DNA of 64,000 bases. Origin: Halorubrum californiense DSM 19288 (GTDB lineage Archaea; Halobacteriota; Halobacteria; Halobacteriales; Haloferacaceae). The notes below the pieces were generated by a model that was not told the DNA's origin, did no database searches, and worked only from the letters and a program-made list of their open reading frames with translations. Positions 23,911 through 29,798 of this stretch are shown piece by piece. The stretch is taken from positions 1 through 64,000 of the forward strand of contig NZ_AOJK01000059.1 of assembly GCF_000336875.1 (NCBI RefSeq), in the 5' to 3' direction. Every line of letters starts with the position of its first letter. Within the stretch, counting starts at the first letter, position 1. Position numbers and translations under genes: made by a program.

Positions 23911-24957
23911 GTGGTCACGACGACTGTCACCACGACGTTCCATAATCCATCCCGCGACCGCCGCAGAGAGTGGCAACGCGCCACCCACTTGTACCGCGAC
24001 ACCAAGCAATTCTGTATCGACGGGTGGGAAACCGGCGAGTTCGGGATGAGTGTGACCACGGCCAGCATTGACAACGCCCTCTACTCGGCTATCCAGAATC
24101 AGGCAATCCGCGAAGCCAAATCCGACTAGAAGAAAGACGGCATCGTGGAGTATCACGCCAGCCAGCCGTTCGCGGTCAACAACCAGAACTGGGAGATCGA
24201 CCGCACCGACAACGGCACGCTCGTCGTTGGCTTCCCCTGTATCTCGGGGTGGTGGTACACGCCGATCGACGTGTACGACGACATCGCCGACGACGTTGCC
24301 CGGCTCGTGGATGGTGAGGTGGACAGATCCCGGTTACAGGTGTACCGCCGGGGCGACGACTGGTACTGTACGTTCACCGTCGAGTACGATGCCGAGATGG
24401 GCGACGAGACAGTGATTGGTGTGGATATAGGCCACAACCAGCTGCTCGCTGCCGACGCCGAAACTGGCGAGTCGATGCTGATGTCCGGCCGTGAGGCGAA
24501 ATACGTCCGACGCAAATATCGTTCCCTACGTGAGTCGCTTCAACAGGCGGGTGCGCTTCGCGCACGCAACCGCGTGGGTGACAAAGAGGAGCGTCGGATT
24601 CGTGACCTCAATCACACTGCCTCCCGTCGCCTCATCGACTGGGCCACACAATTCGAAAATCCTGTTCTGAAGATCGAGGATTTGGAGGGGATCAGGCAGG
24701 GAAGCGACTGGCGTGGCGTTCATTCGTGGCACTTCCACCAGTTACAGGAGTTCGTCACCTACAAAGCCGAGCAAGTAGGAATTCGCGTCGAGAAAGTAGA
24801 TCCGTTTGAGACGAGTCAACGCTGTTCGGCCTGTGGTGGCGAGGGGACACGGGATGGCTACCACTTCTCGTGTGTTGAGTGCGACCGTGGCCGTCACGCC
24901 GACCTGAACGCCGCCGAGAACATCCGTCAACGGGAGGGAGAACCATGTACGGCCTAA
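23911..24957 (+). pseudogene. tnpB: TnpB RNA-guided nuclease, interrupted by an amber codon
   Basis: Reading frame continuous from 23911 to 24957 except for TAG at 24127-24129, codon 73. The downstream part (from GTG 24145) keeps the RuvC acids: Asp in [10 protein letters not shown], Glu in LKIEDLEG and Asp in [12 protein letters not shown]. It also keeps the zinc finger RCSACG...CVEC. TnpB is the ancestor of Cas12 nucleases and cuts DNA with a guide RNA from the element's right end. The N-terminal wedge region is thus separated. A shortened protein lacking the first 78 residues could be made, but activity is doubtful. Confidence 0.8.
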
Positions 24958-27714: not shown

Positions 27715-27762
27715 ATTGGAATTTTGAGAGGCAACTATATACGAGTCATTATCTGCCTCATT

Positions 27763-28341
27763 TTAGGCGTTGAATCCGATTGTTTCCTTGACATCTGACA
27801 CAACACTTGGACAATTTGTTAAATAATATTTTATTTTTCTTCTCCAATTTTCTCTTTGGTTACTATCTTGGATGTGTGTGATATCTTCCAGAGATTGTTT
27901 AAATGCGATAAGATCAAAAGAGCCAGAATTTGTATTTTGGATTATAACATCAACAGAAAAGAAAACAAAATGCGGATTTTCAGATGTCTCATTATACTCC
28001 AAACGTAGATCTCCTCTATATTGTTCATCCAACTTTGCTTGAAGAGATGTTTCAAACGGGTTCTTTCCGTTCCCATCAAAATCAACGAGTAGTATAAGAT
28101 TCAAATCATCAATTTCGGTTGCGATCGTGCGGAATTGTTTAATTACTTCTGACTTCCCACCTTCTGACTTATACAGGTAGTCAATCTGATCACCTACCTG
28201 ATGCTGTCTGATACGAGTACTCTGGGATTCAGTGGCTAGTTGAGCATTAAAAGTATCATAATCGGAACCTCTATTATATTTATGTAAGAGTTTAAGAAAC
28301 TCTAAGTCGTGTTTTCCCTCACTAAAAATTATAGTGGACAT
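27763..28341 (-). CDS. TOPRIM-like protein of an ATPase/nuclease pair
   Basis: A 192-residue protein. The N-terminus MSTIIFSEGKHDLEFLKLL fits the TOPRIM Glu motif (EGKxD), and LNLILLVDFDGNGKNPF near residues 87-103 fits the DxD motif. The start at 28341 is one base after the ATPase stop, so the two are coupled; an upstream ATG at 28398 would overlap it. Codon use is AT-rich and the protein much less acidic than its neighbours, which suggests recent transfer. Partners of this sort occur in PARIS (AriB, DUF4435), RloAB and split OLD systems. The exact family is uncertain. Confidence 0.65.
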   Translation of the reverse strand: MSTIIFSEGKHDLEFLKLLHKYNRGSDYDTFNAQLATESQSTRIRQHQVGDQIDYLYKSEGGKSEVIKQFRTIATEIDDLNLILLVDFDGNGKNPFETSLQAKLDEQYRGDLRLEYNETSENPHFVFFSVDVIIQNTNSGSFDLIAFKQSLEDITHIQDSNQRENWRRKIKYYLTNCPSVVSDVKETIGFNA

Positions 28342-28342
28342 C

Positions 28343-29665
28343 CTATATCCCCCTGAGATCTGAATTAAGCTCTTGTACCTCTTCTTTACCTTGTTCATAG
28401 CCCAATTCTCTGTGGATTTTTCCGGTCATCTGTATTATTTGGAAGTTGGAACGGAGATATTCTCCATGTGACTCCTCTAAGGGATCGGATAGGAATCCTT
28501 CAATCATATCTAAATTATGCGTTGTTATGAATAATTGAATATTTTCTTCCTTGGCGAGTTTAATTAGCTGCCTAATTAATTTTTCAACATATCCTGGATG
28601 CATATGAACATCTGGTTCTTCCAAGAGCAGTACGTTCTCAGTCGTCCGATTGTCAAAAAGATGCCATAAACAACCAATGATGCTTTTAAACCCATCTCCC
28701 ATAAATTCATATGGAACTTCGTGTTTTGAGCCATTCTCTGTGTATACGATCTTATTAAATGAAAAGTCATTCAGATTGTTTATTATATCTGATCTTTTGA
28801 GAAAGTCTTCAATGTCACTAGCTATTATAGCTGATCGATCTTCCGAAAGTGAAGTCTTGTGAGAATCCAGTTTGGGATCTCTAATTAATGAAACTCCTTC
28901 TACCTCTCTCGGATCATCCCCAACGAACTGATCACCACCAAAGCGCGGCGCAAGTAACCTTCTAAAATCATGTGAGAGTGTATTGCGTATATTCTTGTCA
29001 TCCTCTTCTGAAAATGATTCAATCTGTATGTTTTGTATTGCCCGATCGATAGATCGGTCTACAGCCTTCCTCCGGATATTATGATATCCATTCCCAAGGT
29101 GAATATATGGATACATATCTCCATCAATCTCAAGAACAATCATACTATCTTTCATATTAGATATTATTTCTTCTTCAGAGAGATTCGCAATAACCTCGGA
29201 CATAATTTCTTCTGTGTCATCTCGTATATTGCTCACTGTCTGAGCTATCTCAAGATTTGTCACTTCTGTTCCAACAGCCATTGGATATCCTTCATTTATT
29301 TCAAGAACATCATTTATAATATTCATTGAATAATTAAGAACCTCAGAATCATTTGGTTGCCTCAGACCAATATCATCATGAATTGTATTTGAATTAGAAT
29401 TACTATCATATGAGTCGAGTGTCATTTGCCCTTTGCGATATTCACATTCAATTGAGCCTGCCCCACTTCCCTCATTTATGATTTTATCAAGGTTTCCGCG
29501 TAGCTGTTCAATATTACTTGGATTGAATAGGAGGTCGATTGACTCAAGCAGAGAAGTCTTGCCCACATTATTCCTACCGGTAATTAGGTTGATCTGCGTT
29601 GGGTTCAATTCTATCTCATTAATACTTTTTATACCGCCAACTCGAAGGCGCTCAATAGTAGTCAT
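28343..29665 (-). CDS. AAA_15/AAA_21 ATPase, defence-associated type
   Basis: A 440-residue OLD/SMC-like ATPase. It opens MTTIERLRVGGIKSINEIEL, followed by Walker A TGRNNVGKTSLLES (about residues 29-42). A long variable helical middle follows, then the ABC-like Walker B VLLLEEPDVHMHPGYVEKL near 345 and the switch histidine FITTHNLDMIEGF near 375. Such ATPases with a TOPRIM partner sense phage proteins or DNA ends. The gene is strongly AT-rich relative to the window. It shares an operon with the downstream TOPRIM-like gene, and its start lies about 60 bp from the tRNA-Arg 3' end. Confidence 0.8.
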   Translation of the reverse strand: MTTIERLRVGGIKSINEIELNPTQINLITGRNNVGKTSLLESIDLLFNPSNIEQLRGNLDKIINEGSGAGSIECEYRKGQMTLDSYDSNSNSNTIHDDIGLRQPNDSEVLNYSMNIINDVLEINEGYPMAVGTEVTNLEIAQTVSNIRDDTEEIMSEVIANLSEEEIISNMKDSMIVLEIDGDMYPYIHLGNGYHNIRRKAVDRSIDRAIQNIQIESFSEEDDKNIRNTLSHDFRRLLAPRFGGDQFVGDDPREVEGVSLIRDPKLDSHKTSLSEDRSAIIASDIEDFLKRSDIINNLNDFSFNKIVYTENGSKHEVPYEFMGDGFKSIIGCLWHLFDNRTTENVLLLEEPDVHMHPGYVEKLIRQLIKLAKEENIQLFITTHNLDMIEGFLSDPLEESHGEYLRSNFQIIQMTGKIHRELGYEQGKEEVQELNSDLRGI

Positions 29666-29723
29666 TGACCGAATGATTAGCAAAACAGCTCTTTCAGTTC
29701 TTTGGTATTATAAGAAGCAGGAA

Positions 29724-29798
29724 CGAGCACGGTGGGATTCGAACCCACGACCATCGGATTAGAAGTCCGACGCTCTATCCTGGCTGAGCTACGTGCCC
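29724..29798 (-). tRNA. tRNA-Arg (anticodon UCU)
   Basis: A 75-nt cloverleaf on the minus strand. Acceptor GGGCACG pairs with CGTGCTC (one G-U). The D arm is GCTC/GAGC. The anticodon stem is TCGGA/TCCGA with loop CTTCTAA, giving TCT. The T arm is GTGGG/CCCAC with TTCGAAT, and the discriminator is G. No CCA is encoded. No intron is visible. Confidence 0.95.

Follow-up and report, generated by a model that had tools for sequence, protein, structure and literature searches.

A probable split OLD-type ATPase-TOPRIM module beside tRNA-Arg in Halorubrum californiense

In the 64,000-nucleotide stretch of the Halorubrum californiense DSM 19288 genome analysed here (the window), two minus-strand genes, called as open reading frames (ORFs), lie between moaA and tRNA-Arg(UCU) and encode a 440-aa ATPase and a 192-aa partner (Table 1). 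The longest ORF of the ATPase is a 446-aa version starting from TTG, and a single base separates the ATPase stop codon from the ATG of the partner gene. GC content is 0.37 for the two genes and 0.35-0.39 within the insert versus 0.65-0.74 outside (about 0.70 for the neighbourhood), and the ORFs, the GC content and the tRNA call together confirm the coupled two-gene AT-rich island that the first-pass annotation had described here. A TATA-like box, TTATAATA, precedes the ATPase ATG by about 41 nt, lies 10 nt past the tRNA 3′ end and may serve as an archaeal promoter; a sigma-70 promoter scan was not informative, the host being an archaeon. The neighbours of the pair are moaA, tRNA-Arg and a kinase-like gene. 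The window also carries a TnpB gene of IS200/IS605 type (23911-24957, plus strand; Cas12f1-like_TNB 2e-20 in a 270-aa part), which is broken by an in-frame TAG at 24127-24129 and where local GC falls to about 0.59.

Table 1. Features of the moaA/tRNA-Arg interval, in window coordinates.
Feature	Coordinates	Strand	Basis
moaA	26710-27714	+	Radical_SAM 4e-33, Mob_synth_C 2e-14
AT-rich insert, moaA to tRNA-Arg, about 2.0 kb	27715..29723	.	GC, gap in relatives
Gene 2: small TOPRIM-type protein, 192 aa, predicted nuclease effector	27763..28341	-	ORF, AF2 model, profiles, alignment
[ST]xE motif SLE (S150, E152 invariant)	27886..27894	-	alignment; equivalent to BpOLD T506/E508
TOPRIM DxD motif (D87, D89)	28075..28083	-	alignment; equivalent to BpOLD D455/D457
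TOPRIM glycine motif KSEGG (K58, G62 invariant)	28156..28170	-	alignment
TOPRIM motif I, EGKHD (E8, D12)	28306..28320	-	alignment; equivalent to BpOLD E400/E404
Gene 1: OLD/SMC/PtuA-like ABC ATPase, 440 aa from ATG	28343..29665	-	ORF calls, Pfam, structure model
C-terminal tail LNSDLRGI, family consensus LxLDLRGI	28346..28369	-	D436, L437, R438, G439 invariant
Switch histidine motif TTH, aa 381-383	28517..28525	-	sequence; T382, H383 invariant
Walker B LLEEP region, aa 346-351	28613..28630	-	sequence; E349, E350 invariant
Walker A, GRNNVGKTS, aa 30-38	29552..29578	-	sequence; G30, N32, N33, G35, K36 invariant in A4 alignment
TATA-like box TTATAATA, putative archaeal promoter	29706..29713	-	sequence
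tRNA-Arg(UCU), hotspot edge, 3′ end toward island	29724..29798	-	tRNA call and sister-genome comparison

The ATPase matches Pfam AAA_21 (3e-26) and AAA_15 (4e-24), and the motifs read from it at first pass, GRNNVGKTS, LLLEEPDVHMHP and TTH, are present and invariant in the A2 and A4 alignments, in which all of its ABC motifs are conserved. An hmmsearch with the A4 profile returned OLD (6e-13), PtuA (5e-9), Rad50 (6e-9) and AriA (2e-5), and the predicted structure (pLDDT 80) resembles PtuA, SMC, Rad50 and GajA (Foldseek probability 1.00, TM 0.3-0.45). The DLRG tail is a possible docking element for the partner; the ATPases of the bacterial relatives end in IEIR, IEVR or RGE, and a docking tail may be common to the archaeal and bacterial ends.

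The partner has no significant match in Pfam or NCBIfam, and PDB searches with it by phmmer and hmmsearch yielded no significant match. Among 26 aligned partners, E8, G9, K58, G62, D87, D89 and E152 are found in 26/26 and D12 in 25/26, so that the EGKxD and DxD motifs noticed earlier, here SEGKHD and LVDFDG, are conserved across the family. As the motifs of the pair are invariant or nearly so in these 26 partners and in the ATPase alignments, they are not a product of chance. The two-metal site of BpOLD is composed of E400, E404, a glycine after strand 2, D455, D457 and T506xE508 (PMC6755086), and the invariant E/D/G/DxD/E set of the partner, mapped by motif, equals this site residue for residue; the complete OLD-superfamily TOPRIM set, namely E(x3)E/D, the glycine after strand 2, DxD and [ST]xE, is present. 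S150 and E152 of the SLE motif are likely to be second-metal ligands, comparable to LEDF of DUF3226. An hhalign comparison of the archaeal partner profile with bacterial DUF3226 partners gave a probability of 94% (E 1.4e-7), and Pfam DUF3226 and DUF4435 matches of the archaeal partners fall below the cut-off. In the AF2 model of the 192-aa protein (pLDDT 87), strands alternate with helices; E8 follows strand 1, and DxD follows a strand further on. Foldseek of this model against PDB and BFVD placed no TOPRIM among the best 50 matches; RecA and the other matches (TM <0.4 by query length) were rejected as chance. The first-pass annotation had named a missing TOPRIM fold as grounds for refutation; the Foldseek result neither confirms nor excludes that fold, and motif and profile evidence support the partner as a predicted TOPRIM nuclease.

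At least 33 archaeal loci carry the partner gene directly 3′ of its ATPase gene, with a slight overlap or a few bases in between, and the hosts comprise Halobacteria together with one Nanohaloarchaeon, one Aenigmatarchaeon, one Thermoplasmatota and one Methanomicrobiaceae MAG, the last with masked sequence within the small gene. Distance matrices of the two proteins agree over 26 loci (Mantel r 0.81, 0/2000 permutations as high), and the GC of the pair is well below that of the locus in most carriers. This obligate linkage, the co-variation and the low GC lead us to regard the two genes as a single mobile module that is inherited together. The small protein is present in 6 of 97 near relatives and in 17 of 391 genomes of the class. 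Within Halorubrum, one other carrier (G013) was found among the genomes searched, with the small gene elsewhere on the genome, and a further copy (L071) came from the contig collection, in which a single-sequence ATPase search had no match and an alignment query was needed. These three Halorubrum-type copies fall in separate clades of the ATPase tree, which indicates horizontal acquisition. The closest ATPase to that of the window belongs to another genus of the same family (50%; 42-44% to Natrialbaceae), and together with the position of the other Halorubrum copies this excludes universal vertical inheritance; the recent acquisition that had been suspected is supported, and the distribution is rare and scattered in the tree. 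No virus-borne copy of the pair was found in IMG/VR or among phages. Two genomes of one genus, in the same family as the window (G184 and G225), carry about four copies each (L152, L154, L159-L164) with near-host GC of 0.53-0.66; unlike the AT-rich single copies elsewhere, several are orthologous between the two genomes and some are broken by stops, and several of them look resident rather than mobile.

The gap between moaA and tRNA-Arg ranges from 50 to 8066 bp in the 39 genomes of the genus where it was measurable, the emptiest sites in relatives being 50-102 bp, and sister cargo, often AT-rich, includes GmrSD with a C5 methylase, DUF4238, a Fic-like gene and unknowns. The same tRNA-Arg is single-copy at the hotspot in relatives without the pair. 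Among other loci of the family, 13 of 17 have no tRNA in the stretch covered, and one of 17 lies within about 250 bp of one. The first-pass annotation had pointed to the tRNA adjacency, allowing that it may simply mark an insertion site, and the variable gap, the unrelated cargo in sisters and the few tRNA-adjoining loci elsewhere uphold this simpler view; the adjacency is best read as a property of the insertion site. For the hotspot, tRNA-directed integration is plausible, fragments of the tRNA 3′ end recurring 56-174 bp from the tRNA in several sisters; at the far edge of the window insert, a search for an att-like direct repeat matching the tRNA 3′ end found none. In Halorubrum ezzemoulense, 18 of 70 tRNA genes are near genomic islands (PMC11078007). 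In several genomes of the genus (L045, L047, L049, L054, L056, L057, L196, L201), tRNA-Arg and the kinase-like gene are separated by about 4.5 kb of GC-rich DNA, versus about 100 bp; this stretch, on the 5′ side of the tRNA, may be either another variable slot or an insertion of ancestral age. The inserts of L046, L057 and L183 hold similar-looking AT-rich cargo encoding proteins of about 270-356 aa, to which L046 and L183 add a second protein of about 230 aa; the 332-aa cargo protein of L183 has no Pfam match.

The closest relatives of the pair are bacterial pairs of an ATPase and a DUF3226 protein, the PADLOC candidate PDC-M38, a widespread family. Outside the archaeal family, the nearest ATPases come from bacteria, and the gene after most of them encodes an LLVEGxDD protein of 180-240 aa. 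The bacterial partner tested matches PF11536 (DUF3226; 8e-69) and PDC-M38B (5e-68), with a weak OLD-like_TOPRIM match, and the best PDB matches of the bacterial partners' profile, all weak, are AriB (E 0.004), PH0156, 1t6t and RNase M5. PDC-M38A is matched by 13 of 13 family ATPases (best 7e-31; window 1.6e-23), and one M38B model by 5 of 12 archaeal partners at E < 0.1 (best 5e-7), that of the window not being one of them. The two kinds of pair share gene order, ATPase type, partner size (about 200-225 aa), the residues ExxxD...G...DxD...LE and profile homology. The archaeal partner differs by about 32 additional residues that separate helix 1 from strand 2, by a different C-terminal part, by having no clear Pfam match, and by the invariant lysine K58, which is special to the archaeal family and not seen in the bacterial kin. 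The archaeal ATPases likewise form a separate clade, with DLRG instead of IEIR at the end: the ATPase tree places the bacterial rows on one side of a branch (SH-aLRT 97) and 27 of 29 archaeal rows in another group (94), the two most distant archaeal rows lying outside both supported groups. For the archaeal pair, the best description is that of a lineage sister to the PDC-M38-type pairs. To our knowledge, PDC-M38 is a candidate system that is itself unvalidated, and our literature search found no mention of PDC-M38 or DUF3226. The PADLOC putative candidates, the class that includes PDC-M38, are described in PMC12988326.

Taken together, we consider it probable that the pair is a horizontally mobile split OLD module, composed of an ABC ATPase and a TOPRIM nuclease, that is most likely antiviral or anti-plasmid and is the archaeal sister of PDC-M38. 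The defence role proposed at first pass is supported at the strength of "probably defensive", on three grounds: the roles known for the relatives, the patchiness of the distribution, and restriction genes, which occur in the hotspot and beside one sister copy (L011/L064); by ORF inspection this copy adjoins an integrase and type I RM-like genes. An improbable alternative is that the pair belongs to the toxin-antitoxin or addiction type and serves to maintain mobile DNA, with no trigger dedicated to antiviral action. Such a pair would share the two-gene, AT-rich and sporadic character and the conserved catalytic site, and PDB titles also call AriA the antitoxin to AriB; however, a 440-aa ATPase with every ABC motif conserved is large for a plain antitoxin, the pair occupies a chromosomal slot with restriction genes in sisters, and tblastn of either protein against the plasmid collection gave no match at the limits used. 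It is very improbable, and already disfavoured, that the pair is a RecF/Rad50-like or Cran1-like ATPase-nuclease with a role in housekeeping or DNA repair that is AT-rich by chance: the ATPase is related in fold to RecF, Rad50 and SMC, and the archaeal OLD protein Cran1 of Sulfolobales, which has a role in the cell cycle rather than in defence, offers a precedent (PMC12796447), but the confinement to so few, scattered genomes of the class and the foreign base composition in most carriers speak against it.

The first-pass annotation had matched the layout to PARIS, RloAB or split OLD systems, of which the split OLD-type pair of ATPase and TOPRIM protein stood, while PARIS as such did not, and RloAB fell away with no Pfam match to RloB (PF13707) at E <= 1 in the window protein and six family members. 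Class 1 and 2 OLD proteins (TsOLD, BpOLD, GajA) likewise combine an ABC ATPase with TOPRIM and a two-metal site of the same catalytic residues (PMC6755086), but they are fused single chains, Class 2 with an adjoining helicase gene, whereas here there are two genes and no helicase. Gabija, in which a fused GajA accompanies the UvrD-like helicase GajB, was rejected on the same split and on the neighbouring genes. A fused single-chain OLD protein of about 554 aa with a REIENY motif is also encoded in the window's own genome (L172, G000 contig C83, 1207-2871). Weak profile matches link both proteins of the pair to mad3/mad4 of MADS and to HEC-01A/B; mad3/mad4 are part of the larger MADS system, and no further MADS genes lie beside the pair. 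It is highly unlikely that the pair is true PARIS (AriA and AriB, Class 4 OLD) with a tRNA-cleaving effector and the adjacent tRNA-Arg functionally linked as target or decoy: the split adjoining genes and the TOPRIM motifs are shared with PARIS (EGRHD in AriB) and PADLOC AriA is the top ATPase match, but the AriA models behave like generic AAA_15/AAA_21, with nearly equal lengths and E-values, so that the label was rejected as non-specific, AriA fits the ATPase profile less well than OLD, PtuA or Rad50 do, the DUF4435 match of the partner (E 0.015, 15.5 bits) is below the cut-off of 27, the effector has 192 aa versus 308-316 aa for AriB chains in the PDB, and the tRNA is that of the hotspot. 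PARIS itself responds to anti-restriction proteins, Ocr among them, and cleaves tRNA. The only DUF4435 match in 194 class genomes is a contig-edge protein of the same genus (L169, G007 contig C78, 38-1234), in which an AriB-type DUF4435 is fused to the C-terminal part of an ATPase, a possible archaeal fused PARIS/OLD protein.

Reasoning from OLD, Gabija and PARIS, we consider that the ATPase of the split OLD module most likely detects an invader and keeps the TOPRIM nuclease under its control, the former being sensor and regulator and the latter, small and presumably metal-dependent, the effector. The ATPase would dimerise or oligomerise through ATP and would hold the TOPRIM protein inactive, possibly via the conserved C-terminal DLRG tail. 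Once an invader is sensed, it would release or activate the TOPRIM protein, which would then cut nucleic acid by two-metal catalysis, and the infected cell would be killed or arrested. Complex formation, nuclease activity, the trigger, the substrate (DNA or RNA, tRNA included) and defence itself are what we infer in this scheme.

OLD Classes 3 and 4 have been reported only from bacteria (PMC12796447), and the pair is a compact archaeal example of the split ATPase and TOPRIM arrangement, a kind reported as bacterial only. Current profile libraries miss or mislabel it, the effector being unmatched and the ATPase called AriA by generic models. Little is known of antiviral systems in archaea (PMC12988326), and the moaA/tRNA-Arg interval, a small-cargo hotspot in the genus, is a place to look for other defence genes. 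A more speculative and rather doubtful extension is an archaeal split-OLD class whose ABC ATPase would recognise viral proteins and set free a small TOPRIM RNase, which might be a tRNase and whose invariant lysine would lie near the active site. If true, this class, with a proposed range of Halobacteria, Nanohaloarchaea, Aenigmatarchaeota, Thermoplasmatota and Methanomicrobia, would be the archaeal counterpart of PARIS.
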